Assembly: GCA_033398695.1 (NCBI GenBank)
Contig: CM065809.1
Coordinates: 84,363,644 to 84,427,643 of the forward strand
Length of the DNA stretch: 64,000 nt
Source: Orobanche coerulescens
Lineage: Eukaryota > Streptophyta > Magnoliopsida > Lamiales > Orobanchaceae
Direction: 5' to 3'
The translations under genes were made by a program, and so were the position numbers. Of this stretch, positions 1,655 through 45,870 are shown in pieces. Position 1 is the first letter of the stretch. Each line of letters starts with the position of its first letter. A model generated the notes under the pieces. It was not told the DNA's origin. It saw nothing but the letters and a program-made list of their open reading frames with translations, and searched no databases.

Positions 1655-1674
1655 GAGTTGGTATCGGAGAGTGG
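1655..1674 (+). promoter_or_regulatory. Primer binding site of copy A
   Basis: TTGGTATCGGAGAG follows the LTR immediately. It matches the initiator-Met tRNA primer site of plant LTR elements (TGGTATCAGAGC type) with small changes. Confidence 0.75.
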
Positions 1675-2125
1675 TTTTGAATACTACCCTCCAAGTCATG
1701 TCTCGTTTGAAATCATCGTCATCGGACTAGTATCATTGGACTTTCGCCACGTGTGACTGTGCAAATGCCGAGCCAATCGGATCAAGAACAAGTAAGATTT
1801 CTAATGCCATGGTATAATTTCTCGCAATAATCATTCATTCATAATTCATCGCTTAACAATACTCAATCATCATTGTCACTTTGACCAGACGGTCAAGTTA
1901 ACTCATTAATCACTCAATTCATTTCATTATTCATTGTTGATCGTGAAGATCAAATCATTAATCTTGTTAACTCATTCAAGATAATCATTTCAAGAACTTC
2001 ATCGCATACAATCATGTCACGTCAATTAATCATTCATGTAATCATGTATTTGAGCGCGTATGCTCATTTTCATCATTTCATAATATAATCATAATGTGAT
2101 ACTCATGCGAGATATATAATCATCA
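1675..2125 (+). other. Untranslated leader of copy A
   Basis: This stretch between primer site and gag is AT-rich, with many TCATTCAT and AATCAT strings. No coding signal was seen. The equivalent region of copy B is 11983-12437. Confidence 0.6.
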
Positions 2126-3410
2126 TATGACTTTCCACTTCAAGATGGAAAGGGTCGGCAGAGACGTGGAGGACGAGGCCGTGGAGCGGGCCGAATCCCG
2201 AGAGCTCGTTTGAATACACGTGCAAACGCGAGGAATAATGCTAATTCATCGAGCAAATGACGCCGCCACTCATTCACCTCGACGCGATCATTCAATATCG
2301 GGAGTTGTACCGGACACGGCTCATCGAGGGTGTCCGGTTGACCCACTCGCTTTATGCGTGGCATGATGGCCCAAATGACCCGATGGCTCGGTTGATGGAG
2401 ACGATGCATAACTCCGTCAATCAAAATCAGCAGCTCCTCCGCCGCCACCTCGCAGGCAAGAGAGGAATGTGAGTAATATCATCGGCGATATCTTCTCGCC
2501 AGGCCACCTACTTTTGAGGGCCTGCCCGAGCCAGAGATATCATTCATTGGCTCGAGCATTTTGAGAAGTTGTTTGCTATGGTAGAGTGTCCCAGGGACAC
2601 AAAGTTTGTTGCGGCTTACTACCCGGGTAAGAGCGCACATTCTGGTGGTTATCGTTGAAGCCCACCGAAGGATCTTGTACTTGGGATCGATCAAGACTCT
2701 CATGATGGAGAGGTACTACCCGGCCCCACTCGCAGAGGCCAAGTCGTCGAATTGCTCACCCCGACCCCTCAACAGACGAGGATGTTCTCGCCATTGCCGA
2801 GAAATTTCAGAACTTCTTCCTTTCGCCTCATCCATCATTCATTCGAGGCGGATAAGATCAAGTATTTCAAAGAAGAGGTCAAACCCCGTATGAGACTTGA
2901 TTTACTTAATCATAATTGCACCACGTTGGCGAATTCATTGAGAAAGCTCTCACCTACGAGCTATCGCTAAGGAAATTTCTAAGCGGCAACCTTCGTCTCG
3001 CTAGCAAGAAATCGAAGAATCGTAATCGTCCGAAGGCGGTCGACAACCTTCAAGAAACCCGTGCGGGCTCGCTTTCGAGCGACCTCCCGTGTCGTCTAAA
3101 CCCGCGAATCTCGGTCTCGAGCGGCGATCGCCATCACCTGTTTCAACTGGGGATCTTGGTCACCTCACCAAGTGTCCGAGACAGACTATCACATGTCATA
3201 ATTGTGGAATTGCCGGGCATAAGGCCCGTTTTTGCCGTAGGGACTCCAAACCTACTCGGACGTCATCTCGTGCACCTAAGCGGTCACTGCTCGTAATCAA
3301 AGGCCACTCAATCGGGCTGCTTTAAAACGACAGGAGCGACTAAAGGTGGAGCCTATAGCCAGCAGACGGGAGCGTCCGGTGCCGGGACTAGCAAGCCCCG
3401 GATCTATGAG
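2126..3410 (+). pseudogene. gag of copy A, fragmented by many small indels
   Basis: Gag forms the virus-like particle of the retrotransposon and packages its RNA. The region aligns base for base with the better preserved gag of copy B (12438-13737), starting with an RG-rich N-terminus and passing through the Retrotrans_gag core and a zinc-knuckle region near 3180-3240 (CHNCG followed by GH). No single frame stays open for long. Almost every difference from B falls at CAG or CTG sites, where a base is lost or changed. The breaks may therefore be consensus errors rather than true mutations. Confidence 0.8.
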
Positions 3411-5735
3411 ATGAAGAAGACCGATGATCCAGAGGCCCGAATGATCTCAGGTACACTCGATATTCTATCTCAACCTGTGTGTACCCTTTTCGATACTGGT
3501 GCATCGCATTCATTCATTTCCGAGTCATGTGTGAGTAGACTACGTCTGGGTAGTGCTACTAGTTGTGAGCCTTATGTCATTAGCCTACCTGATGGTAGAC
3601 GAATTACCAGTAATCGTGAGATTCAGAATTGTCCAATTCAGTTTCATGGCCGTGTATGGCCAGCGGACCTAGTCGTGGTAGATTTGCCGAGGGACGACGT
3701 CATCTTGGGTATTGATTGGATGGATCGTCATGATGCCATCATTAGTGTCCGTAAGCGTATGGTCACTATCATTTCAGACGATGGGGTTGAATGTGTGTTT
3801 CAGGGAGGTAATCCCGGCTGTTCTGGTAAGGTCATTAATTTGATGAAAGCAGTAAGGTTACTCAATCAGGGATGTGTCGGTTATTGGTGCTATATGGCCA
3901 AAACCGAGAAATCATTAGTAATGTTGACGGATATTCCGGTAGTGAGGGAATATGCCGATGTTTTTCCAGACGAGTTACCTGGTTTGCCTCCACAGAGGGA
4001 TGTGGAATTCACGATTGAGTTGGAGCCTGGTACGTCCCCGATATCGAAGGCACTGTACCGGATGGCCCCGACCGAAATGCAGGAATTAAAGAACCAACTT
4101 GAGGAGTTGTTCGAGAAAGGTTATATCCGACCGAGTGCGTCCCTGTGGGGAGCACCAGTGTTGTTTGTCAAGAAGAAGGATGGTTCATTCCGCTTATGTA
4201 TTGATTATCGGGAGTTGAACAGGGTGACGATCAAGAATAAGTATCCCTTACCCCGTATTGATGATCTCTTAGATCAACTTGAGGGAGCTTCAGTATTTTC
4301 CAAGATCGACTTAAGGTCTGGATATCATCAGTTGTGGATCCGAGAGTCGGACATCGCGAGGACGGCGTTTCGAACACGCTATGGTCATTATGAATTTGTG
4401 GTTATTCCGTTTGGATTGACTAATGCACCTGCGGTATTCATGGAGTTAATGAATCGGGTTTTCATCGACTTTTTGGATCAGTTTGTTGTTGTCTTCATCG
4501 ATGACATTTTGATTTATTACCGTGACCGGGAGGAACACGAGTTTCACCTTCATCAAGTACTCGACGTGTTGAGACGAGAACAACTTTATGGGAAGTTCTC
4601 CAAATGTGAGTTCTGGATGTCCGAAGTGACTTTTCGCGGACATGTAATTTCATCAGACGGAGTTCGTGTCGACCCTCAGAAGACGGAGGCTATTCGAGAT
4701 TGGCTACCTCCGAAGAACGTTAAGGAAATCCGAAGTTTCCTCGGATTAGCGGGTTATTATCGGCGATTTGTAGAGGGATTTTCTAGAATCGCTCAACCCT
4801 TAACGAACCTTTTGCGGAAGGATAAGAAATACACGTGGTCCGACGCGTGTCAGCGGAGTTTTGAGGAACTCAAGAGCCGGTTAATGTCAGCACCTGTACT
4901 TTCCTTGCCGCAGGGGACGGAAGGATTTGTGGTTTATAGTGATGCGTCCGGACAGGGTCTCGGATGTGTACTCATGCAGAACGGGAAGGTTATTGCCTAT
5001 GCTTCACGGCAATTGAGACCTTACGAGGTTAATTATCCGACACACGACCTGGAGCTAGCAGCCGTGGTGTTCGCCTTGAAAATTTGGCATCATTATCTTT
5101 ATGGCGTTACATGTCAGATATTCACCGATCATAAGAGTTTAAAGTATATATTTACTCAGAAGGAGTTGAATATGCGTCAGAGACAGTGGTTGGAATTAAT
5201 CAAAGATTATGATATCGAGATCCTCTACCACCCGGGCAAGGCGAATGTTGTCGCCGACGCCTTGAGTCGTAAGTCCGTTCAGGAGCATATGCTTGCCCGT
5301 TTAACAGTTCAGAAGGAGCTTCAGCAGGAATTCCTTAGACCCGAGATCGAGGTCTGGCTTCAGCGAGTTCAGGGGAAGCTTTGTATGTTAGAGATTTCAT
5401 CGTCACTCGAGGAGGCAATCCGAGAGAATCAGGGTTCGGACCCATCATTGTTGCGCATCCGAGAGGATGTGGCTCAAGGGAAAGCCCCTGGATTTGTGGT
5501 CCACGAGGATGGACTTTTGAGGTTTAAGAATCGGTTGTGCGTACCGGCGAATGTCGAGTTGAAAAACTCGATTTTGAAAGAAGCCCATGCTACCCCTTAC
5601 TCTGTTCATCCGGGGTCTAGCAAGATGTACAAGGACTTGAAACAAAATTACTGGTGGAGTAATATGAAGCGAGAAGTCGCAGAATTTGTTTCGAGATGCT
5701 TAACTTGTCAACAAGTTAAGATTGAACATCAGTGA
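3411..5735 (+). CDS. pol: gypsy pol of copy A: protease, reverse transcriptase, RNase H, start of integrase
   Basis: This is a 774-residue open frame. The aspartic protease motif DTGASHS begins near residue 28. Reverse transcriptase shows CIDYREL near residue 262 and the catalytic FIDD box near 361-365. RNase H begins with YSDAS near residue 508, and DALSRK near 617 marks its end. The integrase zinc region starts near 725, with an H-x-H pattern and C-x-x-C. The frame stops after IEHQ at a TGA where related elements usually carry Arg, a probable CGA to TGA change. The same stop is present in copy B, so it predates the duplication. In a working element gag and pol would form one polyprotein; here gag is broken. 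Confidence 0.93.
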
Positions 5736-6821
5736 CCGGCGGGTATGCTGAAACCTCTTCCTATTCCCGAATGGAAGTGGGAAGACATTTCTATGGATTT
5801 CATCACGAGTTTGCCGACGAGTCGTCGTGGCATGAATACAATCTGGGTGATCGTGGACCGCTTAACTAAATCAACTCATTTTCAAGGAGACGTGGGGTCC
5901 CGAGAGACTTGCTCAACTGTTCATCAAAGAGATAGTCAGACTGCACGGTACTCCTAAAAGTATCGTTTCCGATCGTGACGGACGGTTTGTGTCTCATTTT
6001 TGGAAATCAGTTCATCGTGCTATGGGAACCCAGCTTAATCTCAGTCGCTTTTCATCATCAGTCCGACGGACAATCAGAGAGGACCATTCAGACATTAGAG
6101 GACATGTTGAGTGCATGCGTCCTCGATTGGAAAGACGATTGGGAAGCCCAACTACCATTGATCGAGTTCACGTATAATAATAGTTGGCATGCTTCGATCA
6201 AGATGGCACCTTACGAGGCCTTGTATGGTCGTCGTTGTCGATCTCCGTTGTGTTGGGACGACTTATCAGAATCAATCGGCACCGAGCCCGATATGCTTAT
6301 AGCCGCCCGTGAGAAGGTAACTTTGATAGAGTCGTTTGTTGATTTCGTAGTCGACAGAGATCATACATGATAACCGCTGCCGACCTTTAGAGTTCGAGGC
6401 TGGTGACCATGTGTTGGTCAAGGTATCCCCGAGTCGTGGTATCTTCCGTTTTGGGAGGAGGGGAAAGTTGAGTCCGAGATTCATTGGACCGTTTGAGATT
6501 TTGGATCGAGTAGGCGAGTTAGCTTATCGATTAGCTTTACCTCCGGCATTGAGCCGAATTCATAATGTGTTTCATGTCTCTCAGCTGCGGAAGTATGTTT
6601 CCGACCCGAGTCACATACTTCAGTTCGACGAAATCGAGATCGCCGACGATCATTCATATGAGGAGCGTCCTATACGAGTTTTAGAGCGGCGAATCAAACA
6701 GTTGAGGAATAAGACGATTCCTTTGGTTAAAATTCAGTGGTCTAGACACAGAGTCGAAGAGGCTACTTGGGAAACCGAGGATAGTATGCGGGAGAGTTAT
6801 CCCGAGTTGTTTGACCCTTAG
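5736..6821 (+). pseudogene. Integrase core and chromodomain-like tail of copy A
   Basis: The first part (5745-5957) encodes the start of the integrase core ([13 protein letters not shown], then [11 protein letters not shown]). It then changes frame after THF, where a few codons also appear to be missing. The second part (5975-6370) carries the rest of the core, including DGQSER and YNNSWHASI. The last part (6411-6821) carries the [10 protein letters not shown] segment and an EEATWETE chromodomain-like end. The shift after THF is shared with copy B. Further breaks near 6040 and 6325-6385 are private to A and fall at CAG sites, so those may be consensus errors. Confidence 0.85.
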
Positions 6822-6838
6822 TTTCGGGGACGAAACTC

Positions 6839-6851
6839 TTTTAGGGGGGGG
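6839..6851 (+). promoter_or_regulatory. Polypurine tract of copy A
   Basis: A TTTTAGGGGGGG run sits four bases upstream of the 3' LTR and would prime plus-strand DNA synthesis. Copy B has the equivalent at 17162-17173. Confidence 0.75.
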
Positions 6852-7084
6852 TGTATGTAATACCCGGTTGTAATTCAGTAATTATCATTCAGTATTTATC
6901 ATTCAGTAATTGATACTCAGTAATTTCACTCATTATTGATCATTTGCCACTCAGATTTAGTCATGGTATTCATCATTTAGAGTAATTGTATCGAGTATCA
7001 ATCGTCATTCATCACTAATCTGATTGGAGTTTCGTGTCGTGTTTATCATCATTGTCAATTTCGTTGCGAACTGTGCGTGAAGGG

Positions 7085-7643
7085 TAGCGCACGCTACGTA
7101 CTCCTTTTAGCGTACGCTAATTGGGTATAGGTAGCGCACGCTACCACTCAGCTTTAGCGTACGCTAAGGTTGCCTGGCCGCACCCGTAAGGTACCGGGCT
7201 GCAGTGAGTTATAAGTAGCGCACGCTACTTAATGGTAAGTAGCGCGCGCTAGTGAGTTGTAGTAGCGCACGCTAATATGTGGTGTAGCGCTGGGGAGATC
7301 GAGTTGAGTCCGGTGGCTACCGGATCGCACCGGATTAATTCTTAGCGCACGCTATGTGTTGTTTTTAGCGTACGCAATCGATATTATAGCGCACGCTAAA
7401 TAATGGTTGTAGCGCACGCTATCGAGGTCAGATCATAGGACAGGCAGTTTCTGGATTCCAGTACTGGGCATCACATTATTCGTTAGCGCACGCTAACTAT
7501 GAGTATTAACGTACGCTAGTGGTATGGCCGTAGCGCACGCTACAAAAAGGTACGTAGCGCGCGCTACCGTTTTCGGACAGTGGGTACTGGAATACCCAAA
7601 TTACCCGTTAGCGCACGCTATGCATAAGGGCTAGCGCACGCTA
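7085..7643. repeat. Array of 12-bp palindromes TAGCGCACGCTA in the U3 of the A 3' LTR
   Basis: I count about 18 units, of which about two are degenerate. They are irregularly spaced, with unrelated sequence between them. Variants are TAGCGCACGCTA, TAGCGTACGCTA and TAGCGCGCGCTA; the latter two are perfect palindromes. The last unit ends about 10 bp before the TATA box. The uneven spacing argues against satellite-type amplification and for binding sites. Confidence 0.93.
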
Positions 7644-7652
7644 ACCTGGAGT

Positions 7653-7662
7653 GATTATATAT
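7653..7662 (+). promoter_or_regulatory. LTR TATA box, A 3' LTR
   Basis: ATTATATATT lies directly downstream of the palindrome array, at the expected U3/R boundary. It is conserved in the B LTRs. Confidence 0.7.
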
Positions 7663-9321
7663 TGGACAGTCAGCTTGAGTTCGTCTTTTAGCATTCTATT
7701 CTCATTCTCTCGTCGGTTCTAGGCGATTTGGGCGATTTAGAGAGTATTCTTCAAGGTGTAATCATCAATCATCATCTTCAAGTCTTTGAGTTGGATTAAT
7801 CATCACTTCATCATCTCCAAAACATCGAATCAAAGGTATTAATTTCTTGGATCTAGAATTTCGGATTTTTGGGTTTTCCTTCCGATTTCTTCGTGTAAGC
7901 TTGGATTATCATTGGAAAATGTTAGATATGGATTATCTACCTTGGATGAATATATTCCTACGGATTTAATGGTTATTTTCGGAATTGTTTTTAAGAACCC
8001 TTGGGGTTGACTTCGATTAATTGGGAATTTTCCGATTGATGTTGTTGTAATCATAAATTATGGATTCCTAATGGATTATTGATATCATTGAAGTGTTTTG
8101 TTAGTTCGAAATACTCATTTTGGTGTGGGTTTCGACATATTCGGGATCGATATTTCCGAAGTTGTGTGGTTGGTTATGTATTCGTTGGAATGCCCTATGA
8201 GTTTGATTATCGTTGTTTTCGACCTTTGGGTTAGTCGTGTTTTGTTGCTTGATAAGTGTATTGAGCGATTGTTGGTAATTATTGTTATTCAAGGTTGTTC
8301 GAGCGACCGGTATCTTGGTTAGGACGTTGTTCGTGGACGAATATTCTTCATCGTTGTTGTGTAAGTTAAATCTTACTCGGTTAAAAGGATACTCATTCCT
8401 TTTGTTGTTGATTGCTCATAATCATAATTCATTCATCATAATATTAATCATTTTGAGACTTGTAATTGTCGAATAATCAATTCATTCACGAGGAACGACG
8501 GTTCCAAATCATTTCATTGGGTTATCAATCACGTCACTATTACTTTCATATCGGTGAGTCATCTTGGCCTTGTCTAATTATTATTTATTGATATTCATCA
8601 TGGTCATTCTCGTTCATGTGACCTTCCCGGTTCATATTGCATGGTCGGGTGTGGCTGTGTGGAATTTTTAGTCAGGGCACACGATGGTCATGTATTGGGT
8701 TCACCGATACATCGGACCGTGCACACGGTAACGCTTACCTCCGTGAGACTAATTAGGTACAAGGACGGGTGTGTCCGGTCATTCGTCTTGTACACTTGCA
8801 CAGAACATTACGGGCGTACTATGATACTCCTCTTCAGCGTAATTCATAATTAAGAATATTTCATAACTTCAGTTAATTCATGATTGTGTAATTTCAACTC
8901 TTGAGGATTGTTGTTCGTAAATCGACTCGTTGGGGATTTTGTTTTCGTCACGACAAGGCAAAGGCACGGGAAGAGCATGTTGACGGCGACGAGTCCCAGT
9001 GATACTAGTAGGGGGCCCCAGTCATTCCGTTTGTTCAGTCATCTTCAGTCATTTTAGTTATTCTGTCATTTGTATTTTCCGCTGCAAATTCCGTTTGAGA
9101 TGTTTATTTATTCAGGGTGGTGTATTTTATCTTCATATAAAATATACTAGTATTCGTTATTGTCCTGGTGTGTTGTACTTAAACTCCTCATCGGAGTACT
9201 TGGTAATATAATGTGGTTCGGTACTACAATTATATTATTTAATTCATCATTTTCATTCGCCTGGTGGGTCCCAGTCGGGGATTCACGGCACTGTAATATC
9301 CGCCTAGTTTGGGGTGTTACA

Positions 9322-9485
9322 AACCATATCCATATATTCACACACAGCACAATACAACACATATATTCAAACAATTCACCCAGAGGCATCAAATACTTAG
9401 CAAAACACAACGTCAAACCACAATGCACCGAAATGAAATAATATACGTCCACAAGCATTATCAATCACAATATCAACACCAACCA
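9322..9485. other. Duplication junction and flank between copies A and B
   Basis: The spacer starts AACCATATCCATA, the same 13 bases that follow the B 3' LTR at 19648-19660, then turns into different sequence and ends CACCAACCA before the B LTR. The simplest reading is that it holds right-flank sequence joined to left-flank sequence of the original insertion, i.e. the join of a tandem duplication. The flank looks like LTR H sequence. Confidence 0.75.
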
Positions 9486-9714
9486 TGTAATACCCGGTTG
9501 TAATTCAGTAATTATCATTCAGTATTTATCATTCAGTAATTGATACTCAGTAATTTCACTCATTATTGATCATTTGTCACTCAGATTCAGTCATGGTATT
9601 CATCATTCAGAGTAATTGTATCAAGTATCAATCGTCATTCATCACTAATCTGATTGGAGTTTCGTGTCGTGTTTATCATCATTGTCAATTTCGTTGCGAA
9701 CTGTGCGTGAAGGG

Positions 9715-10281
9715 TAGCGCACGCTACGTACTCCTTTTAGCGTACGCTAATTGGGTATAGGTAGCGCACGCTACCACTCAGCTTTAGCTCACGCTAAGGT
9801 TGCCCTGGCTGCAGTCCAGAAGGTACTGGACTGCAGGTGAGTTATAAGTAGCGCACGCTACGAATGGTAAGTAGCGCGCGCTAGTGAGTTGTAGTAGCGC
9901 ACACTAATATGTGGTGTAGCGCGCGCTAAGGATAGATCAGGTTGAGTCCAGTGGCTACTGGACTGCACTGGATTAATTCTTAGCGCATGCTATGTGTTGT
10001 TTTTAGCGTACGCAATCGATATTATAGCGCACGCTAAATAATGGTTGTAGCGCACGCTATCGAGGTCAGATCAGAGGACAGGCAGTTTCTGGATTCCAGT
10101 ACTGGGCATCACATTATTCGTTAGTGCACGCTAACTATGAGTATTAACGTACGCTAGTGGTATGGCCGTAGCGCACGCTACAAAAAGGTACGTAGCGCGC
10201 GCTACCGTTTTCGGACAGTGGGTACTGGAATACCCAAATTACCCGTTAGCGCACGCTATGCATAAGGGCTAGCGCACGCTA
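9715..10281. repeat. Palindrome array in the U3 of the B 5' LTR
   Basis: This has the same order of TAGCGCACGCTA-type units as at 7085-7643, with one unit (near 9910) better preserved as TAGCGCGCGCTA. It stops about 10 bp before the TATA box. Confidence 0.93.
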
Positions 10282-10290
10282 ACCTGGAGT

Positions 10291-10300
10291 GATTATATAT
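10291..10300 (+). promoter_or_regulatory. LTR TATA box driving copy B
   Basis: GATTATATAT lies just after the array in the 5' LTR. It is the likely promoter core for copy B transcription. Confidence 0.7.
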
Positions 10301-11962
10301 TGGACAGTCAGCTTGAGTTCGTCATTTAGCATTCTATTCTCATTCTCTCGTCGGTTCTAGGCGATTTGGGCGATTTAGAGAGTATTCTTCAAGGTGTAAT
10401 CATCAATCATCATCTTCAAGTCTTTGAGTTGGATTAATCATCACTTCATCATCTCCAAAACATCGAATCAAAGGTATTAATTTCTTGGATCCAGAATTTC
10501 GGATTTTTGGGTTTTCCTTCCGATTTCTTCGTGTAAGCTTAGATTATCATTGGAAAATGTTAGATATGGATTATCTACCTTGGATAAATATATTCCTACG
10601 GATTTAGTGGTTATTTTCGGAATTGTTTTCAAGAACCCTTGGGGTTGACTTCGGTTAATTGGGAATTTTCCGATTGATGTTGTTGTAATCATGAATTATG
10701 GATTCCTAATGGATTATTGATATCATTGAAGTGTTTTGTTAGTTCGAAATACTAATTTTGGTGTGGGTTTCGACATATTCGGGATTGGATATTTCCAAAG
10801 TTGTGTGGTTGGTTTTGTATTCGTTGGAATGCCCTATGAGTTTGATTATCGTTGTTTTCGACCTTTGGGTTAGTCGTGTTTTGTTGCTTGATACGTGTAT
10901 TGAGTGATTGTTGGTAATTATTGTTATTCAAGGTTGTTCGAGCGACCGGTATCTTGGTTAGGACGTTGTTCGTGGACGGACATTCTTCATCATTGTTGTG
11001 TAAGTTAAATCTTACTCGGTTAAAAGGATACTCATTCCTTTTGTTGTTGATTGCTCATAATCATAATTCATTCATCATAATATTAATCATTTTGAGACTT
11101 GTAATTGTCGAATAATCAATTCATTCACGAGGAACGACGGTTCCAAATCATTTCATTGGGTTATCAATCACGTCACTATTACTTTCATATCGGTGAGTCA
11201 TCTTGGCCTTGTCTAATTATTATTTATTGATATTCATCATGGTCATTCTCGTTCATGTGACCTTCCGGGTTCATATTGCGTGGCCGGGTGTGGCTGTGTG
11301 GAATTTTTAGTCGGGCACACGATGGTCATGTATTGGGTTCACCGATACATCGAACCGTGCACACGGTAACGCTTACCTCCGTGAGACTAATTAGGTACAA
11401 GGACGGGTGTGTCTGGTCATTCGTCTTGTACACTTGCACAGAACATTACGGGCATACTATGATACTCCTCTTCAGCGTAATTCATAATTAAGAATATTTC
11501 ATAACTTCAGTTAATTCATGATTATGTAATTTCAACTCTTGAGGATTGTTGTTCTCAGAATCGACCGTTGGGGGATTTTGTTTTCAGGTCACGGCAAGGC
11601 AAAGGCACGGGAAGAGCATGTTGACGGCGACGAGTCCCAGTGATACTAGTAGGGGGCCCCAGTCATTCCGTTTGTTCATTCATCTTCAGTCATTTTAGTT
11701 ATTCCGTCATTTGTATTTTCCGCTGCAAATTCCGTTTGAGATGTTTATTTATTCAGGGTGGTGTATTTTATCTTCATATAAAATATACTAGTATTCGGTA
11801 TTGTCCTGGTGTGTTGTACTTAAACTCCTCATCGGAGTACTTGGTAATATAATGTGGTTCGGTACTACAATTATATTATTTAATTCATCATTTTCATTCA
11901 CCTGGTGGGTCCCAGTCGGGGATTCACGGCACTGTAATATCCGCCTAGTTTGGGGTGTTACA

Positions 11963-11982
11963 GAGTTGGTATCGGAGAGTGG
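11963..11982 (+). promoter_or_regulatory. Primer binding site of copy B
   Basis: GAGTTGGTATCGGAGAGTGG directly follows the LTR and is an initiator-Met-type site. The leader (11983-12437) that follows has no coding signal. Confidence 0.75.
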
Positions 11983-12437
11983 TTTTGAATACTACCCTCC
12001 AAGTCATGTCTCGTTTGAAATCATCGTCATCGGACTAGTATCATTGGACTTTCGCGTCACGTGTGACCTGTGCAAATGCCGAGCCAATCAGACCAAGAAC
12101 AGTAAGATTTCTAATGCCATGGTATAATTTCTGGCAATAATCATTCATTCATAATTCATCAGTTAACAATACTCAATCATCATTGTCACTTTGACCAGGA
12201 CGGTCAGGTTAACTCATTAATCACTCAATTCATTTCATTATTCAGTTGTTGATCAGGAAGATCAAATCATTAATCTTGTTAACTCATTCAAGATAATCAT
12301 TTCAGTAACTTCATCAGACAATCATGTCACGTCAATTAATCATTCATGTAATCACTGTATTTGAGCGCGTATGCTCATTTTCATCATTTCATAATATAAT
12401 CATAATGTGATACTCATGCGAGATATATAATCATCAT

Positions 12438-13737
12438 ATGACTTTCCACTTCAGTATGGAAAGGGCTGGCAGAGGACGTGGAGGACGAGGCCGTGGAGCG
12501 GGCCGAATCCCGAGAGCTCGTTTGAATACACGTGCAAACGCGAGGAATAATGCTAATTCATCGAGCGTGACGCCGCCACTCATTCACCAGGACGCGATCA
12601 TTCAATATCGGGAGTTGTACCGGACACGGCTCAGTCAGAGGGTGTCCGGGTTGACCCACTCGCTTTTATGCGGGGCATGATGGCCCAAATGACCCAGATG
12701 GCTCAGTTGATGGAGACGGTGCATAACTCCGTCAATCAGAATCAGCAGGCTCCTCCGCCGCCACCTCAGAGGCAAGAGAGGAATGTGAGTAATATCATCG
12801 GCGATATCTCTCGCCAGAGGCCACCTACTTTTGAGGGCTCGTCTGAGCCGGCAGATATCATTCATTGGCTCGAGCATTTTGAGAAGTTGTTTGCTATGGT
12901 AGAGTGTCCCGAGGGACACAAAGTTTCTGTTGCGGCTTACTACCTGGGTAAGAGCGCACATTCTTGGTGGTTATCGTTGAAGCCCACCGAAGGATCTTGT
13001 ACTTGGGATCAGTTCAAGACTCTCATGATGGAGAGGTACTACCCGGCCCCACTCAGAGAGGCCAAGCTGTCAGAATTGCTCACCCCCGACCCCTCAACAG
13101 ACGAGGATGTTCTCGCCATTGCCGAGAAATTTCAGGAACTTCTTCCTTTCGCCTCATCCATCATTCATTCAGAGGCGGATAAGATCAAGTATTTCAAAGA
13201 AGAGGTGAAACCCCGTATGAGACTTGCCATTTAATCATAATTGCACCACGTTGGCGAATTCATTGAGAAAGCTCTCACCTACGAGCTATCGCTAAGGAAA
13301 TTTCTAAGCAAAGAACCTTCGTGCGCTAGCAAGAAATCGAAGAATCGTAATCGGTCGAAGGCGGTCGACAACCTTCAAGAAACCCCGTGCGGGCTCTGCT
13401 TTTACGAGCGACCTCTGTGTCGTCTAAACCCGCGGAATCTCGCCTCGAGCGGCCGGTTCGGCCATCACTGTTTCAAGCGTGGGGATCTTGGTCACCTCGG
13501 TACCAAGTGTCCGAGACAGACTATCACATGTCATAATTGTGGAATTGCCGGGCATAAGGCCCGTTTTGCCGTAGGACTCCAAACCTACTCGACGTCATCT
13601 CGGGCACCTAAGCAACACTGCTCGTAATCGAGCCACTCAATCGGCTGTTTAAAACGACAGGAGCGACTAAAGGTGGAGCCTATAGCCAGCAGACGGGAGC
13701 GTCCGGTGCCGGGACTAGCAAGCCCCGGATCTATGAG
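12438..13737 (+). pseudogene. gag: gag of copy B, few frame breaks
   Basis: The frame starts at 12438 with an RG-rich N-terminus (GRGRGGRGRGAGR) typical of chromovirus gag. It shifts near 12660 into a 188-residue stretch (12668-13234) carrying the Retrotrans_gag core, with IHWLEHFEKLF and WWLSLKP. The frame breaks again near 13230. A zinc-knuckle region follows at about 13455-13570 (CHNCGIAGHKARF); the first knuckle and the end of the second are damaged. A working copy would read through into protease. The breaks again sit near CAG or CTG sites. Confidence 0.85.
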
Positions 13738-16051: not shown

Positions 16052-16304
16052 CCGGCGGGTATGCTGAAACCTCTTCCTATTCCCGAATGGAAGTGGGAAG
16101 ACATTTCTATGGATTTCATCACGAGTTTGCCGACGAGTCGTCGTGGCATGAATACAATCTGGGTGATCGTGGACCGCTTAACTAAATCAACTCATTTTCA
16201 AGGAGACGTGGGGTCCCGAGAGACTTGCTCAACTGTTCATCAAAGAGATAGTCAGACTGCACGGTACTCCTAAAAGTATCGTTTCCGATCGTGACGGACG
16301 GTTT
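16052..16304 (+). pseudogene. Start of integrase core of copy B, shifted
   Basis: The sequence is identical in layout to A: after the shared TGA it encodes [15 protein letters not shown] and [11 protein letters not shown], then shifts frame after THF. The shared shift and stop show that the parent element was already defective in integrase before it was duplicated. Confidence 0.8.
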
Positions 16305-17144: not shown

Positions 17145-17177
17145 TTTCGGGGACGAAACTCTTTTAGGGGGGGTGTA

Positions 17178-19647
17178 TGTAATACCCGGTTGTAATTCAG
17201 TAATTATCATTCAGTATTTATCATTCAGTAATTGATACTCAGTAATTTCACTCATTATTGATCATTTGCCACTCAGATTTAGTCATGGTATTCATCATTT
17301 AGAGTAATTGTATCGAGTATCAATCGTCATTCATCACTAATCTGATTGGAGTTTCGTGTCGTGTTTATCATCATTGTCAATTTCGTTGCGAACTGTGCGT
17401 GAAGGGTAGCGCACGCTACGTACTCCTTTTAGCGTACGCTAATTGGGTATAGGTAGCGCACGCTACCACTCAGCTTTAGCGTACGCTAAGGTTGCCCTGG
17501 CCGCGATCCCGTAAGGTACCGGTGGCAGTGAGTTAGGCAGCGCACGCTACGAATGGTAAGTAGCGCGCGCTAGTGAGTTGTAGTAGCGCACGCTAATATG
17601 TGGTGTAGCGCGCTAAGGACAGATCGGGTTGAGTCCGGTGGCTACCGGACCGCATCGATTAATTCTTAGCGCACGCTATGTGTTGTTTTTAGCGACGCAA
17701 TCGATATTATAGCGCACGCTAAATAATGGTTGTAGCGCACGCTATCGAGGTCGATCGAGGACAGGCGGTTCGGATTCCGAGATCGGGCATCACATTATTC
17801 GTTAGCGCACGCTAACTATGAGTATTAACGACGCTAGTGGTATGGCCGTAGCGCACGCTACAAAAATGTACGTAGCGCGCGCTACCGTTTTCGGACGATG
17901 GGTACTGGAATACCCAAATTACCCGTTAGCGCACGCTATGCATAAGGGCTAGCGCACGCTAACTCGGGAGTGATTATATATTGGACGATCGGCTTGAGTT
18001 CGTCTTTTAGCATTCTATTCTCATTCTCTCGTCGGTTCTAGGCGATTTGGGCGATTTAGAGAGTATTCTTCAAGGTGTAATCATCAATCATCATCTTCAA
18101 GTCTTTGAGTTGGATTAATCATCACTTCATCATCTCCAAAACATCGAATCAAAGGTATTAATTTCTTGGATCTAGAATTTCGGATTTTTGGGTTTTCCTT
18201 CCGATTTCTTCGTGTAAGCTTGGATTATCATTGGAAAATGTTAGATATGGATTATCTACCTTGGATGAATATATTCCTACGGATTTAATGGTTATTTTCG
18301 GAATTGTTTTTAAGAACCCTTGGGGTTGACTTCGATTAATTGGGAATTTTCCGATTGATGTTGTTGTAATCATAAATTATGGATTCCTAATGGATTATTG
18401 ATATCATTGAAGTGTTTTGTTAGTTCGAAATACTCATTTTGGTGTGGGTTTCGACATATTCGGGATTGGATATTTCCGAAGTTGTGTGGTTGGTTATGTA
18501 TTCGTTGGAATGCCCTATGAGTTTGATTATCGTTGTTTTCGACCTTTGGGTTAGTCGTGTTTTGTTGCTTGATAAGTGTATTGAGCGATTGTTGGTAATT
18601 ATTGTTATTCAAGGTTGTTCGAGCGACCGGTATCTTGGTTAGGACGTTGTTCGTGGACGAATATTCTTCATCGTTGTTGTGTAAGTTAAATCTTACTCGG
18701 TTAAAAGGATACTCATTCCTTTTGTTGTTGATTGCTCATAATCATAATTCATTCATCATAATATTAATCATTTTGAGACTTGTAATTGTCGAATAATCAA
18801 TTCATTCACGAGGAACGACGGTTCCAAATCATTTCATTGGGTTATCAATCACGTCACTATTACTTTCATATCGGTGAGTCATCTTGGCCTTGTCTAATTA
18901 TTATTTATTGATATTCATCATGGTCATTCTCGTTCATGTGACCTTCCCGGTTCATATTGCATGGTCGGGTGTGGCTGTGTGGAATTTTTAGTCAGGGCAC
19001 ACGATGGTCATGTATTGGGTTCACCGATACATCGGACCGTGCACACGGTAACGCTTACCTCCGTGAGACTAATTAGGTACAAGGACGGGTGTGTCCGGTC
19101 ATTCGTCTTGTACACTTGCACAGAACATTACGGGCGTACTATGATACTCCTCTTCAGCGTAATTCATAATTAAGAATATTTCATAACTTCAGTTAATTCA
19201 TGATTGTGTAATTTCAACTCTTTAGGATTGTTGTTCTGTGTAACTGACCCCGTTGGGGGATTTTGTTTTCAGGTCACGACAAGGCAAAGGCACGGGAAGA
19301 GCATGTTGACGGCGACGAGTCCCAGTGATACTAGTAGGGGGCCCCAGTCATTCCGTTTGTTCAGTCATCTTCAGTCATTTTAGTTATTCTGTCATTTGTA
19401 TTTTCCGCTGCAAATTCCGTTTGAGATGTTTATTTATTCAGGGTGGTGTATTTTATCTTCATATAAAATATACTAGTATTCGTTATTGTCCTGGTGTGTT
19501 GTACTTAAACTCCTCATCGGAGTACTTGGTAATATAATGTGGTTCGGTACTACAATTATATTATTTAATTCATCATTTTCATTCGCCTGGTGGGTCCCAG
19601 TCGGGGATTCACGGCACTGTAATATCCGCCTAGTTTGGGGTGTTACA
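17178..19647 (+). repeat. 3' LTR of gypsy copy B (2,470 bp)
   Basis: The LTR runs TGTAATACCCGG to GGGTGTTACA and is followed by AACCA at 19648-19652. It shares its diagnostic bases with the A 3' LTR. Between 17500 and 17980 most CAG and CTG sites seen in the B 5' LTR appear as CG, CGG or CCG. Confidence 0.95.
17407..17961. repeat. Palindrome array in the U3 of the B 3' LTR
   Basis: TAGCGCACGCTA-type units lie in the same order as in the other LTRs. A few units are shortened, for example near 17605, 17690 and 17828. A TATA box follows at about 17972-17981. Confidence 0.9.
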
Positions 19648-20421
19648 AACCATATCCATAAGATTCACATACTCGTTTACGAAACACACCAATCACAAAA
19701 CACACACGGTTTTGAAAGAGAGCCTTTAACAAGGTTAACTGAATCTTTTGAAAGTTCAATTCAAACGACCAAATAAAAGACATTTAGACGATCACCAATT
19801 ATCATATCCACAAAACAAGAATTATATGGACAAGGTACTTGCCTCGAAATCGGCACGCAAGTAGTCCGATGAACACGGCTCAACCGGGAAGCTACGAAAC
19901 GCCCGATGCTATTAAAAAGGGAGATGACGACGAACGGATGGGTTCAACCTGGTTTCTTTGCAAGAAACTTGACCCTAACATCCTATAATCCATAAATCAA
20001 CAATCATACGAGGAAGGATAATCGTAGAATGTCCGAAAACCCCTCTATGACATTCTACCGGACACCTTCAAGGCGTCGATCAAGAACTCAACCAAAATAA
20101 TGAATCGATACGATCCAACCATGGAATAACAAGGGAAGTGATATAATACATCTAAATAATCATCAATCCATCACAATCCTAAGTTAAATCGGATTAAACG
20201 GATGAAAACAACCAAAACACCCAAATTCCCCAAAATTAGATTTCTAGAAAACCTGACCTGATTCGCTCGATCAAAGGATGTTATAGGATGGATGATTGAT
20301 GATATGAACTCCAAGACTTCATGGATTGATTGTCCAACAACATGTATCCATGATAAACACACCTCCAACCGCGGAAGGGAATAAAACAAGTGAGGAAAAT
20401 GATGAAAAACCCGTCTGCTGG

Positions 20422-20432
20422 GTCTTAAATAC
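20422..20432 (-). promoter_or_regulatory. TATA-like box of LTR H
   Basis: GTATTTAAGAC on the minus strand lies about 17 bp downstream of the palindrome array. Confidence 0.5.
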
Positions 20433-20449: not shown

Positions 20450-20578
20450 TTACGTACGTAATCGGCCATGGCTTACGGCCGTAACCGGCCATGGCCGAGC
20501 CTAATGCCCAAAAATGCCGGCAGCGTTACGTACGTAACCGGACAAATCTTACGCACATAAACGGCCTTACGTATGTAA
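20450..20578. repeat. Mixed palindrome array in LTR H
   Basis: About five units are present, mixing TTACGTACGTAA and TTACGGCCGTAA forms with two degenerate ones. It sits just upstream of the minus-strand TATA box. Confidence 0.8.
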
Positions 20579-21296
20579 CTGCCGGGCCCTTCCGGCTGTA
20601 ACTCGCCAGGGCTGGCCTGGGCCCAACCTGCCCGGCCATGACTCGGCCGGGGCCAACTCCGACGGCCCGGAAGACCCCGAAACCCGAGCCTGAATACGAA
20701 TCGAAGATATGGTTACGAAGTACTCGCAAAGATGAATTCGAGCACTAAGAGAACACACGATTCCGACCATCCGAAGGCTCGAAATTCGACAACGGAAAGT
20801 AATTACCCCAAACTTCGGAAAATTACGGAAATGGCCCAAAATGTCTGAAATACACGATACACGATCGATACACCAAGACAAATCTCGCAACATGAATAAT
20901 AACATTAAATGAACTTACGAGAAACTCGAAACAATAGTTTTAGACGAGATTCGCAAGAATCGAACTCAAGTGCGGAAAAACCGCATAAGAACACGGAACT
21001 CAACAAAACGATACCGAAACGAACTCGGATGGTAAAAAGTGCCGAATTAAATACTCTCGGAATGACGAAATGATCACAATCTAGTCGTCAAAACGGGCTC
21101 CCGCCGAAAAAAAAGAAAATCACCGAAATATGAAATTGCGGATATTACAGTGTGTGTTGAGTAAATTTAGATATATGAATCAATGAGATAACATTTGTTT
21201 AACCTAATAAAATGTGTCAAATATTTCATTCTTATCTACATTATAAATTGTTCGATTTGTATTTGCATACGGCATCACCTGTTAAGTAATTGGACA

Positions 21297-26083: not shown

Positions 26084-26093
26084 CTTTATAATC
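26084..26093 (-). promoter_or_regulatory. TATA-like box of LTR I
   Basis: GATTATAAAG on the minus strand lies about 10 bp from the palindrome array. Confidence 0.5.
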
Positions 26094-26103: not shown

Positions 26104-26468
26104 ATTACGGCCGCTATTTCAAGGCTTAACGTACGTTATGGACTTAACGTACATTATCGCCTCTACGTAGCGTATGCTACATAGCCCAAAACTCAATGCC
26201 TCAAAATGGGGTACCCATTACGTACGTTAACTACATTACATACGTAACAAATCTCACCATTACGTACGTTAACCTCAAGGTATAGCATACGTAATGTGCG
26301 TTGACCTGCCTGTCCCAATCGAACTCCGCGAATCCAGCCTGGCCCGGTCCCACACGCCAAAAGTCAGATGCTATCTGATACCCATCGTTACGTACGTAAC
26401 CCTCACAATTTAACGTACGTAAGCTCAACACAATATCATACGTAATGCTACACATGTAGCGTACGCTA
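26104..26468. repeat. Mixed palindrome array in LTR I
   Basis: About a dozen units are present: TTACGTACGTTA, TTACGTACGTAA, TAACGTACGTAA and also TAGCGTACGCTA (26457-26468), the A/B form. It lies directly upstream of the minus-strand TATA box. Confidence 0.88.
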
Positions 26469-32650: not shown

Positions 32651-32963
32651 GTTACGGCTGTAACATCACTAACATACGGCCGTAACATGAGAATATTACG
32701 ACCGTAACGTGCCCGACTTACGACCGTAACTGGCCCTGGGAGAAATCTGGGCAATCCAACGAAGCTCACTTACGGCCGTGCAACAAAATGGTTACGGCCG
32801 TAACACATATTACGGCCGTATCTGACAAACATTACGCCCGTAAGTGCTCACTGGACCAAAAGCTAGGAAAAAAAACGAACTCAAGTTACGTCCGTGCAAG
32901 TAAGAACTTACGGTCTTAACTGATGAGTATTAAAGCCGTAACAGCCTTCGCTTACGGCCGTAA
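32651..32963. repeat. TTACGGCCGTAA palindrome array, C 3' LTR
   Basis: About 13 units of TTACGGCCGTAA, several with one arm changed, lie immediately upstream of the minus-strand TATA box. Confidence 0.92.
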
Positions 32964-38364: not shown

Positions 38365-40521
38365 TATAACACCCCCAAGATATTTAGGGTATATTACAGC
38401 GCCGTGGATCCCAACATGGGACCCACCAGGCTAGACGACCAACATACTCATCGACTCGCGGAATCAACATAATAACACCTCGTCATAAAGATGCAAAGCA
38501 ATAATAATCCACCCAGTTCAACCGGTCAAACAACCTCACAACCACCCAATAAAAATATAATAGATGAAACATTTCAATCCGAACAAACAAAAGCTCCTAA
38601 GTACTCGAGTACTTCTATTAGTTTATAGGTTGACAAATGATCAAAAGGTAGAAAACAGTAAGACACCACTCATGCACAATCATCACGCACGGCCATCATC
38701 CGTGTACTAGTCCAGCGCCCGTTCGTCTCGATGAACCTGGCCTGAAATTCATAAAATGAATTTCCTCAAAATGGGTCCCCACATGGGCTAGCAATTATGC
38801 TAGTACAAGTAACCAAATGAAGAACTTACACCTTACACATGTATTCAATGCATGCAATCATGAAAACATCAGTTGAAACAAATATTTCAGGAAACGCCAA
38901 TAATCTAAAACACATTTGCAAAATGCACCACAATTAACCGCGGACCCACCCCTCCGTGGACACCTACCGAGACCCCATCGGATCTAACCCGTAGTGGTTA
39001 AAAGCAAGCTCGCGGACCGACCCCTTCGTTGAACCCTACCGAGACCCCATTAGATCTAACTCGTAGTAAGCACACACACACACACACACTCATGAAATAC
39101 TACTATGTCAAGATTGTATGTTCATAAGGGTACTTGCCTCGATCAATAGACGGTGACACGAACGGAAAGGAAGAATCAAACACGATTGCTAGGAACCGGT
39201 GAAACCGAACCTAACGATTCGTAGAATACAATCACAACCATTTCTAAAAGAATACGAAAATAGAATACACCCGAAAACTCGCCCACGATTCATGTATATT
39301 CGTACAGGAACAACAACGAAGGCGGACCACAACCAAACCCTCTCGATTACGCAAATACTATGAAATATACCATGAATCCGTAGGGAAAATGAAAATACCA
39401 ACAAGATTAACCATATACAACATGGATTGATCAACAACACGGAACGAAACGGACAATAAATTAAAAATCCCCAATTTCCCCAAAACTAGGGTTTTAAGAG
39501 ATTTTACCTCGATTCCAAGGTGAACAACTGATGATTAGTGATAGGTTAATGATATGATGATCGAATATACTTCTCTAACGAAGCTTGAGTGAAAATCGGA
39601 TGAACCCTAAGCCTCAAGTCGCTCCCGTCACGAAGAGAAGAGAGAAAGGTGAGAAATGAAGAAAAAGTCGGCCGCTGTCAGTTTATATACTGGCAGGTGT
39701 TACGGCCGTAACATCACTAACATACGGCCGTAACATGAGGACATTACGGCCGTAACGTGCCAGACTTACGGTCGTAACTGGCCCTGGGAGAAAGCTGGGT
39801 AATCCAACGAAGCTCACTTACGGTCGTACGACAACATGGTTACGGCCGTAACACATATTACGGCCGTATCTGATAGACATTATGCCCGTAAGTGCTCACT
39901 GGACAAAAGCTAGGAAAAAAACGACCTCATGTTATGGCCGTGCAAGGAAGAACTTACGGCCATAACTGATGAGTATTACGGCCGTAACAGCCTTCGCTTA
40001 CGGCCGTAATGTGCCTCTGGCAGCAGGCCAGAGATGCACAACATTACATTGAAGGTCGATCGTAGGGTACAAGATGTACCAATGGATACATTCTCAATGA
40101 GTTCCAAGACATAAACTAAAATGTTCAAACAAAACGCGATTCCGACAACCCGAGGGATTGGTAACGACAAGGATAGTTACCCCATAACTTTGGGAAATTA
40201 CAAACGGCCCGAAACATCCAAAACACACGATACATGATCAGAATAACAAACGAAAGTTCACAACATGCATAACAACATGAGACGGACCTACGGCGACCCC
40301 GAAACGGCGGTTCCAAACAACGATTACGAGAATCGAATGAAATAGCAGCGAAAATGACATTAACCACGGAATTGAGTAAAACAAGTCCGAAACAAGCTCG
40401 GATGACACAGTCCAATATTAAATATTCTCGAAATTTCAATATGGTTACAAGCGAGTTGCTCAAAATGAAAAATACACCAAAAATTAAAATCTATCCGAAA
40501 AAGAAAAATGTGGATATTACA
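38365..40521 (-). repeat. 5' LTR of gypsy C (2,157 bp)
   Basis: The LTR starts TGTAATATCC at 40521 (minus strand) and ends GGTGTTATA at 38365, a CA to TA change. It contains a tandemly repeated block of about 70-80 bp around 38930-39070, single in the 3' LTR. It also has about 80 bp around 39440-39530 missing from the 3' LTR. The array, TATA box and CA microsatellite (about 39068-39090) are present. Confidence 0.92.
39699..40009. repeat. TTACGGCCGTAA palindrome array, C 5' LTR
   Basis: This has the same order of units as in the 3' LTR, with several arms better preserved, upstream of the TATA box at 39679-39691. Confidence 0.92.
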
Positions 40522-41774: not shown

Positions 41775-42114
41775 TAACGTACGTAATAGGTTGTTCATAA
41801 CGTACGTAGCACTCACATTTGTATAAAGTGTTGAATTGCAGGTTAACATACGTAACGTTCTCATCATAACATACTTAATGTTCAGAATTCCAACCCTTGC
41901 AAAAAGTAAACCAATGATGTCATTGCGTATGTCATCAGATCCGACGGCTACTTGAGGAAAGCATAATGTACGTAATCAAAGGAAGATTAATGTATGTAAT
42001 AGTAAAGCCATGAGCTACTAGTAGTTTTCGGACGTAATATTACGACCGTTACACATAGGTGTAATGTACGTTACATACATTACGTACATAACATATGTTG
42101 CGTAACGTACGTAA
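41775..42114. repeat. TAACGTACGTAA palindrome array, LTR F1
   Basis: About 12 units are present; roughly half are perfect and the others have one or two changed bases. The array ends about 40 bp before the TATA box. Confidence 0.85.
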
Positions 42115-42154: not shown

Positions 42155-42164
42155 TTATAAATAG
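42155..42164 (+). promoter_or_regulatory. TATA box of LTR F1
   Basis: TTATAAATAG is in the same position relative to the array as CTATAAATAG in LTR F2. Confidence 0.75.
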
Positions 42165-42710
42165 AAGCTTTCAAGGTGTTGAGATACACAAGATTACACA
42201 AGAATTACACAAGCATTCATACTGTTATCTGATCTTTATTCGCAATATTTCTTGAGAGATATATTCATTGTAACTGATACAAGAAGAATTGTGCTAACAA
42301 TCTTCGATATACATTATTGTATCACTGTGAGCTATTTTTTTGAAATGCGAGTAAGTGTACTCGCAAAATCTTTGTATTTTTGAGAGGTTATCTTGTACTC
42401 GATAAACAAGATATAGTGGTCAGTCTTGAGCCAAGAAATCATGAAATTAAAGTTAAGCATTAATCTAGAAAATGCTATTGTAATAGGGTTGGCACTGAAC
42501 TATAAAGTGCATTCAGTTATGAAGAAAAGTCCTAGTCGATAGACTAGGTAGGGGACGTAGGCTTTTTGATAGCCGAACCTCTTGAACAATTTCTTGTGTT
42601 CTTTCTTTTACGCACTTCTCTTACTCCGATTAATCACTTATGCATGAAAAGAGTTCATTACTCTTCCTACCACTATTCAACCCCCTTCTAGTGGCAGTTC
42701 TATACTAACA

Positions 42711-42726
42711 ATTGGTATCAGAGAGG
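42711..42726 (+). promoter_or_regulatory. Primer binding site of F1
   Basis: ATTGGTATCAGAGAGG directly after the LTR is an initiator-Met-type site. Confidence 0.85.
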
Positions 42727-43442: not shown

Positions 43443-43641
43443 TAAAGGCCGATTGTAATACTCGGATAATTGTTGTGTATTTTCATTTATATTTGAACCT
43501 TGTGGTATTTGATTATGTTGTATTGATAATCAAAGTGTGATTTTTCAGTATTCGTATTCCGATATTTATGATCATGTCGTGTGGAGTTTGTCAATTCATA
43601 CATGCTTCTACATGACACTAATGTATGTTAAGAGTTGTGCA

Positions 43642-44005
43642 TAGCATACGCTAGGAACGACAGGTAACGTACGTTACAGTTAAAGTATAGCGTACGTAAT
43701 ATGGGGTCAAGGCAGATAACGTGTGGTCGGCGTTTGGGGGCCAGATGAGGATATTGTCGGATTCCCCCGTGTTAACCTGGAAAACTTTTTGTTAAAGCAA
43801 GTCAATGAATCATAGCGTACATTAAGAGGGTAGAATAACGTACGCTGAGTTGATCATATTACGTGCGTAAAAGGTGGTTAGCGTACGTTAAGAAGGACAG
43901 AAAACGAGACAGTGAGCTACTGCCCGGCGATAGCGTACATAAGTATTTGTCGCTAGCGTACGTTAGGTGCTAACATACGTAATGTCTTTTCAATAACGTA
44001 CGTAA
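43642..44005. repeat. Mixed palindrome array, LTR J
   Basis: About 11 units mix arms: TAGCATACGCTA, TAACGTACGTTA, TAGCGTACGTTA, TAGCGTACGTAA and TAACGTACGTAA. The array ends about 12 bp before CTATTTATAG (44017-44026). Confidence 0.88.
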
Positions 44006-44016
44006 TGTTTAAAACT

Positions 44017-44026
44017 CTATTTATAG
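44017..44026 (+). promoter_or_regulatory. TATA-like box of LTR J
   Basis: CTATTTATAG lies just after the palindrome array. Confidence 0.55.
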
Positions 44027-45417: not shown

Positions 45418-45820
45418 TAACGTACGTAACGCAAACCATATTAACGTACGTAACATTCACAGTTGTCTGCAAGATTTTGATGCGATTAACGACGTAACTC
45501 GCCTATCATAACGCATTTAACACTCATTGTTTTCGTAAGTTTTTACGAGCAGTGCGACGTAACCGTGAGTTATCTAACGTACGTAATGCTTGAATTATTC
45601 TGACCGTTGAAAAAGTCACTAGCCGTTGCAACAAGTCGTCACACTCAACGGATCTCTGACCGTAATATTACGTACGTAACCATGAAGTTCATAACGTACG
45701 TAATGTATATTATCATATCTCACTGGACCAGTTCTTCACTTTCGTTACGGCCGCTATTCGTAGTATATAACGTACGTAACGTTCATAACGTACGTAACCA
45801 TCAGCATGTAACGTACGTAA
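45418..45820. repeat. TAACGTACGTAA palindrome array, LTR F2
   Basis: About 10 units are present, most of them perfect TAACGTACGTAA. It ends 40 bp before the TATA box, as in F1, although the sequence between units has diverged. Confidence 0.9.
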
Positions 45821-45860: not shown

Positions 45861-45870
45861 CTATAAATAG
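45861..45870 (+). promoter_or_regulatory. TATA box of LTR F2
   Basis: CTATAAATAG is within sequence alignable to F1. Confidence 0.75.

Follow-up and report, generated by a model that had tools for sequence, protein, structure and literature searches.

Within a 64-kb stretch of the Orobanche coerulescens genome, here called the window and analyzed over its full length, LTRs of both gypsy and copia retrotransposons carry arrays of a 12-bp palindrome just upstream of a TATA-like box. This raises the question of why elements from two superfamilies should hold the same kind of array at the same place in their LTRs, and what type of molecule might read it. We addressed that question with this one window as the evidence base, which holds seven array families, five of gypsy lineage and two of copia lineage.

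The exact motif, TWRCGNNCGYWA, had 84 matches in the window, whereas 100 dinucleotide shuffles averaged 0.53 and never exceeded 3. Each of the ten array stretches (Table 1) contained between 3 and 17 exact sites, which was above the maxima of 1–3 found in 500 dinucleotide shuffles per stretch, and in the remainder of the 64-kb window there were no exact TWRCGNNCGYWA sites and seven sites with one mismatch. The same regularity was evident from the CpGs themselves, with 58 of 209 array CpGs (0.278) having a CG-to-CG offset of 4 bp, compared with 0.037 of the 2325 CpGs elsewhere, when the LTR copies A2, A3 and H1 were left out of the count. A sequence-only reading of this DNA had described palindrome arrays in seven LTR types, with 5–18 copies per LTR and ending 8–41 bp before the TATA box, and had named enrichment over dinucleotide shuffles as the way to check it. 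That description agreed well with the counts obtained here, with the enrichment being present within the window and all exact copies lying within arrays, with 17 exact sites in A1 and 5–12 sites in the other LTR types when decayed copies were included (A 17, F1 10, J 9, F2 12, I 12, H 11–12 and C 5–6 per LTR), and with the last site lying 10–41 bp from the TATA-like box across the seven types. The center of the palindrome varied with the family, being mostly CGCACG in A, CGGCCG in H and mostly CGTACG in F1, F2, I and J, with C, I and J each also having a single exact CGGCCG site; because these variants are family-specific, more than one protein might be involved.

Table 1. Arrays, TATA-like boxes and associated LTR features, with positions counted from the first nucleotide of the window.
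Feature	Position	Strand	Remarks
LTR A1, 3' LTR of gypsy element with weak chromodomain match	6855..9345	+	From self-alignment, boundaries unrefined
Array in LTR A1 (gypsy)	7085..7643	+	17 exact sites in groups of 4, 3, 4, 4 and 2
TATA-like box, LTR A1	7656..7661	+	12 bp past last site
Array in LTR A2 (5' LTR, second A element)	9715..10281	+	14 exact sites
Array in LTR A3 (3' LTR, second A element)	17407..17961	+	14 exact sites; two more without a central base
Array in LTR C (gypsy, H relative)	20450..20601	-	Gaps from TATA side 23, 53, 23, 18, 23; last site with two mismatches
TATA-like box, LTR C	20425..20431	-	18 bp past last site
Array in LTR I (gypsy by terminus near 26668 only)	26105..26468	-	Three groups of four; one site with two mismatches
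TATA-like box, LTR I	26086..26091	-	13 bp past last site
Array in LTR H1 (3' LTR, gypsy element H)	32652..32963	-	
Array in LTR H2 (5' LTR, gypsy element H)	39700..40009	-	
TATA-like box, LTR H2	39684..39689	-	10 bp past last site
Array in LTR F1 (copia, Sirevirus-like)	41775..42114	+	TATA-proximal group 22-18-23
TATA-like box, LTR F1	42155..42160	+	40 bp past last site
F1 C-run and 5' LTR/PBS junction	42675..42723	+	
Array in LTR F2 (gypsy by terminus at 43456 only)	43619..44005	+	Groups of four, proximal group 23-17-23; outermost site with two mismatches
TATA-like box, LTR F2	44017..44025	+	11 bp past last site
Array in LTR J (copia, F1 relative)	45418..45820	+	Proximal group 23-18-23
TATA-like box, LTR J, within CTATAAATAG	45862..45867	+	41 bp past last site

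Judged from their sequences, the array-bearing LTRs are of two lineages, with A/B, C and H together with I and F2 being gypsy, and F1 and J being copia. Elements A and H both contained the gypsy set of domains (RVT_1, RVP_2, Retrotrans_gag and SH3_Tf2-1), the Ty1/copia polymerase domain that characterizes a Sirevirus was found in neither of the two, and their pol regions matched each other at 68.6% over 2.96 kb. The chromodomain of element A (PF00385) gave weak matches, with E values of 5.8e-4 and 1.2e-3 that were both below the curated cut-off, and its pol ORF had its highest identity, among the best 120 of 7960 protein matches, to Rumex salicifolius (70% over 96%); a chromodomain C-terminal to the integrase would mark a Del/Tekay chromovirus, to which lineage element A may belong. 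LTRs I and F2 were assigned to gypsy by their termini only, because of starts shared with other families: the F2 LTR, which begins directly after the F1 gag ORF, starts with TGTAATAC as does the A LTR, and the I LTR starts with a one-base variant of the TGTAATATCC that starts C and H. As for F1, which is followed by a copia gag, a Sirevirus-type junction with CA, ATTGG and TATCAGAG was found at 42709-42723 (its ninth PBS base being A, and not the C of the described Sirevirus PBS TATCAGAGC), and a CCCCC at 42681-42685 lies in a C/T stretch whose end is some 20 bp away from that of the LTR, compared with about 21 bp described for the C-rich integrase signal of Sireviruses. By this junction and this signal, the F1 element appears to be Sirevirus-like. 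One further copia element of the window, with 183-bp repeats at 57091-57273 and 62538-62720, has no array.

When the motif was masked and LTR–LTR matches were taken up to E 0.05, no gypsy LTR matched any copia LTR among the seven LTR types of the window, with the 3' boundaries of LTRs C, I, F2 and J placed approximately. In the sequence-only reading, common descent of the whole LTR had been dismissed as an explanation for the sharing of arrays, the elements being both gypsy and copia. The LTR families had also been called unrelated, which was correct as to the sharing between gypsy and copia but not as to seven separate lineages, since C and H could be aligned with each other (69% over 346 bp), as could A and H (77% over 66 bp) and F1 and J (77% over 69 bp), all with the motif masked.

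With regards to the overall structure of the locus, the two A elements were seen to lie back to back (window positions 1-19672), with about 140 bp between their LTRs and with 97% identity. Outside of the array and in non-CpG columns, A1 and A3 differed at 10 of 1772 positions and A2 and A3 at 44 of 1766, a pattern hinting at segmental duplication. Furthermore, a roughly 1.93-kb unit forms three tandem copies at 50769-56855, with 96–98% identity and with two minus-strand ORFs that match Retrotrans_gag.

The distances between neighboring sites were regular. Using a blind set, in which sites with at most one mismatch were accepted and spacing was ignored (73 sites in seven families with one LTR each, giving 66 neighbor distances), we found that 38 of the 66 distances were 22–24 bp, whereas the null averaged 5.04 and never exceeded 14 in 20 000 random placements of equally many sites across an identical span. 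Exact sites only gave the same result with 21 of 44 distances (null 2.5, maximum 10), as did a scoring that tolerated CpG decay, with 40 of 70 (null 4.9, maximum 14), and distances of 25–37 bp were entirely lacking in both the blind set (0 of 66) and the exact-only set. With the decay-tolerant scoring, neither the 17–18 bp class (5 of 70, null 4.0) nor the 50–54 bp class (6 of 70, null 2.8, maximum 12) was in clear excess by number. As to placement, the 17–18 bp distance separates the two inner sites of a group of four in each of C, I, H, F1, F2 and J and occurs one further time, at a group edge, in I, and the TATA-proximal group followed the order 22–23, 17–18 and 22–23 bp in gypsy (I and F2) and copia (F1 and J) alike.

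The sites were moreover grouped in fours. Against a null in which short and long gaps were reordered at random within each family, 10 of 25 clusters in the blind set had exactly four sites (null 3.3, P 0.0002) and one was larger, having five sites (null 4.6); in the curated list, which leans towards regularity because degenerate in-phase copies were picked by eye, 14 of 24 clusters had exactly four sites and none was larger (null 3.1 and 5.8, respectively). Counted from the TATA side in that same list, the first long gap was 54 bp in A, 53 bp in C, 50 bp in I, 52 bp in H, F1 and F2 and 53 bp in J, so that all seven families had a first long gap of 50–54 bp (random null 0.63, maximum 4). In the blind set this was the case for six of the seven (random null 0.64, maximum 5), the gap in F1 being 62 bp owing to an intruding chance site and a decayed site that escaped detection, and with exact sites only for three of the seven (A, C and J), because of decayed sites in the other arrays. 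Permuting the families' own gaps gave a mean of 3.4 families with all seven reached in 0.35% of cases for the curated list, and a mean of 2.9 with at least six reached in 0.7% for the blind set. The I array was oriented by its LTR terminus and leader, which matters for this count, as the reversed array would have a first long gap of 105 bp. This spacing grammar, with its steps of 22–24 bp, its groups of four and its first gap of about 52 bp, was overlooked in the sequence-only reading.

We next consider whether the palindromes act as DNA or as RNA, on which the two halves of each site are informative. In the families that use several half-sites (I, F1, F2 and J), 40 sites could be scored, of which 13 were symmetric, compared with about 11.4 under free mixing of halves; such mixing would be expected if a dimer reads two TWRCG halves, but not if a hairpin is under selection. 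The arms read TAA...TAA in the sense direction at six of nine scorable sites in F1 and at seven of nine in J, all seven in J being exact TAACGTACGTAA, with these arms in this sense also present at two sites out of 11 in both I and F2. The suggestion of a dimeric DNA-binding protein, made in the sequence-only reading, is in this way indirectly supported, both by the number of symmetric sites and by a spacing that is fixed while the linkers vary. An RNA role of such palindromes has been proposed for maize Sireviruses, and would here imply that U3 is transcribed at the 3' end, whereupon the palindromes pair and the resulting hairpins feed siRNA production or some other RNA function. In agreement with this, the arrays of A (z -7.0, also -6.6), H (-6.6), I (-4.1), C (-3.9) and F2 (-3.6) folded better than dinucleotide shuffles, using 40 shuffles for each test, and an excess of small RNAs is given for maize Sirevirus palindrome clusters in the cited part of one report (PMC10760457). 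However, the folding excess was largely gone (z -1.7 to +1.1) when the motifs were kept and the linkers shuffled, the copia arrays folded weakly (z -2.1 for F1 and -1.1 for J, or -0.37 in a single check), and the halves of a site need not match each other. Selection for an RNA hairpin was hence unsupported beyond the motif itself, and we regard an RNA role as unlikely.

The regular spacing could also be a by-product of tandem duplication of short units, by slippage or by jumping of the reverse transcriptase, which would leave the distances without function. Tandem Repeats Finder indeed gave periods of 22–24 bp with 68–87% matches in A, C and H, and the linkers within an array were weakly similar to each other in A (P 0.007) and in J (P 0.009). 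No significant similarity of this kind was seen in the other five of the seven families, however, and the groups tend to end at four, with equal distances being found in gypsy and copia elements that lack LTR similarity, for which reasons we find duplication quite unlikely as the source of the spacing. When linkers of 22–24 bp pairs in the curated list were compared between families, four of 21 comparisons had P<0.05 (A–H 0.04, A–F1 0.036, C–H 0.004 and I–F1 0.012), at identities of 0.33–0.41 compared with 0.30–0.34. The weak similarity in A, in J, and in A–F1 and I–F1, the last two being comparisons of gypsy with copia, leaves some room for duplication or exchange.

The gaps between the groups held inverted repeats in some of the families, with nine in A2 compared with 1.3 in shuffles, two each in C and I and three each in F1 and J (shuffle means 0.3–1.9). 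The A2 gaps at 9797-9848 and 9929-9980 contain GTCCAGAAGGTACTGGAC and GTCCAGTGGCTACTGGAC, one J gap contains ACTGGACCAGT and one I gap TCAGATAGCATCTGA. It is possible that these constitute a second type of site, not common to all families; a second palindrome family as a general feature of the arrays was rejected, as H and F2 had no inverted repeats in their gaps.

Fixed distances, weakly related linkers, mixing halves and the constant place before the TATA-like box are together best explained by a cooperative dimer, and we consider it probable that the arrays are promoter-proximal enhancers, located in the U3 of each LTR and read cooperatively by a dimeric host protein. Each 12-bp site would then bind one protein dimer, with one monomer for each TWRCG half-site, and dimers on neighboring sites would cooperate at about 23 bp or, less often, at 18 bp. 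Four sites would give one assembly of about 76–82 bp, with the TATA-proximal assembly positioned about 52 bp, or five helical turns, from the next. As 52 bp corresponds to 4.95 turns at 10.5 bp per turn, the two groups nearest to the TATA-like box should, by this arithmetic, lie on one face of the helix, and the distances of 23 and 18 bp would be about half a turn apart. Because the array is common to two superfamilies, a host protein is the simpler choice, and the reader would most likely be a host factor used by the gypsy and the Sirevirus-like copia elements of this genome, with their common spacing reflecting the geometry of the predicted protein. CpG methylation of silenced copies would be expected to block or weaken its binding. 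More tentatively, and with slightly less than even confidence, we propose that gypsy and Sirevirus-type copia elements have adopted one and the same ruler, with groups of four spaced 23/18/23 or 23/23/23 and five turns between the proximal group and its neighbor, and that a single host protein, oligomeric and cooperative, reads it, such that the spacing would be a shared code reached either by convergence or by old exchange. If true, the fixed distances would allow for a sharp test by shifts of half a helical turn, a group of four with its 76–82 bp would be a clean bait for the binder, and retrotransposon activation, CpG methylation and host regulation would be linked in a testable manner.

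The mismatches in the arrays carried the signature of CpG decay. In 32 one-mismatch sites near arrays, 23 mismatches were at CGs and 21 of these were C>T or G>A, and in a wider, partly curated list of 122 sites the corresponding figure was 28 of 32 CG mismatches, among 46 mismatches in all. Such a bias is expected of methylated CpGs and reports on the decay of CpG, not on the sensitivity of a protein; for the methylation-sensitive binder previously suggested, the decay was thus seen, with the sensitivity of the protein being plausible. The observed/expected ratio of CpG was 1.38–2.37 in the arrays compared with 1.03 for the window, and the GC content was above 50% only in the arrays of A (0.513) and C (0.546, over 152 bp). 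Between A2 and A3, 3 of 38 motif CpGs had changed compared with 13 of 25 linker CpGs; in H the comparison of motif with other LTR CpGs gave 4 of 24 and 39 of 110 (P 0.09), and in the A LTR pairs that of motif with all other LTR CpGs gave P values of 0.06, 0.28 and 0.11. Protection of motif CpGs from decay was set aside as a candidate explanation, the differences between A1, A2 and A3 in the gaps being possible base-calling errors or array replacement. These differences cluster at CAG/CTG and CCGG together with small indels (7167-7215, 7298-7342 and 7422-7483, with the matching parts of A2 and A3), and we infer that they may reflect sequencing error at methylated sites, if not replacement of the array.

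Both the CpG content of the arrays and the predominance of C>T/G>A at mismatched CGs would fit arrays that serve the host chiefly as silencing signals or CpG methylation traps, with a repressor as the bound protein, but the elements would be expected to shed such signals and the place just upstream of the TATA-like box would better fit activation, which makes this reading highly improbable. That the arrays are instead bound by an anti-silencing protein of the transposon's own, comparable to the VANDAL/VANC system with its likewise dense motif arrays in transposon non-coding DNA, is about equally improbable, since element A has no ORF of at least 150 aa besides gag and pol (ORFs of 84–128 aa are present), since sharing between gypsy and copia would be unexpected of a self-encoded factor and since the motif is here a palindrome with CG.

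Returning to a dimeric host protein as the predicted reader of the arrays, NAC factors could be considered, having the core TTNCGT[G/A] or T[G/A]CGT and domains that bind as dimers (PMC4081100). Their core resembles the TTACGT/TACGT of the CGTACG variants, and NAC factors are possible readers of these. The NAC palindrome in the cited part of that report is CGT N7-8 ACG, compared with CG NN CG here, and it was not found within single sites; as the sole reader NAC factors were rejected, since the H sites (CGGCCG) have no CGT core and since the spacing of the NAC dimer differs. R2R3-MYB homodimers were also rejected, with no matching palindrome in the part of the source cited here (PMC11995187).

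In the literature covered by our searches, we found no report of gypsy LTR arrays of this kind or of the fixed spacing, and six motif strings searched for in literature text gave matches in five papers, unrelated by title. Scans of IMG/VR for site pairs yielded 4, 0 and 4 loci with 2–4 exact sites each, none of which was recognized as a plant LTR. One IMG/VR contig, 3300033463_001428 (L002:5761-5931), holds eight TTACGTACGTAA-like sites, four exact and four with one mismatch, at 22–23 bp and just before an apparent small ORF as judged by eye; word and spacing are as in the plant LTRs, and the likeness is presumably a case of convergence.

Among known systems, VANC21 and VANC6 share with the present arrays the dense occurrence of short motifs in non-coding DNA, there of Arabidopsis VANDAL transposons. 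Those are DNA transposons, however, and the VANC21 motif YAGTATTAY, as given in the cited part of the report (PMC5735166), has no CG, is not palindromic and is bound by a protein that the transposon itself encodes; the parallel to VANC drawn in the sequence-only reading is for these reasons weak. In maize, the palindrome CACCGGACNNNGTCCGGTG outnumbers every other motif in the structured regions of both Copia and Helitron elements, thereby providing a precedent for LTR clusters and for sharing across transposon classes, although it is treated as RNA secondary structure and as a source of small RNAs in the cited part of that study (PMC10760457). For Del elements, which are gypsy, variable CpG islands in the 5' part of the LTR are described from monocot groups, with none in the eudicot Del LTRs of the same study (Cruz et al. 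2014), and their CpG-rich 5' region of variable length, which the authors suggest could serve escape from host control, is reminiscent of the LTRs studied here, although the part of the report cited makes no mention of a repeated palindrome (PMC4029996).

The closest precedent, finally, and one overlooked in the sequence-only reading, is that of the palindromic repeated motifs (RM) described upstream of the TATA box in 13 Sireviruses, of which 12 have a CGG-CCG core (Bousios et al. 2010, PMC2829016). These are likewise palindromes with CG that occur as element-specific variants of one theme, for which no common binder was found and which were called Sirevirus-specific after comparison with other copia elements (PMC2829016). 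The arrays of the window agree with the definition of an RM as a palindrome having at least eight copies per element in the first half of the LTR, with that placement checked for A, H and F1, except for C with its 5–6 copies. As to the CpG island that an RM array would form, the CpG ratios of all arrays lie above that of the window, with a GC content above 50% in A and C only. The core CGG-CCG with varying intervening bases, in contrast, is here replaced by CG-NN-CG with TWR arms, CGGCCG being confined to H and the three single sites given above. The RM were furthermore described from Sireviruses, compared with five gypsy LTR types here, and fixed spacing is absent from the cited part of their description (PMC2829016). 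The copia part of our findings is a variant of the known Sirevirus RM, and the gypsy arrays and the shared ruler appear new against the literature searched; should the gypsy elements of this genome use both formula and distances, a single host factor exploited by several retrotransposon superfamilies would be the probable binder.
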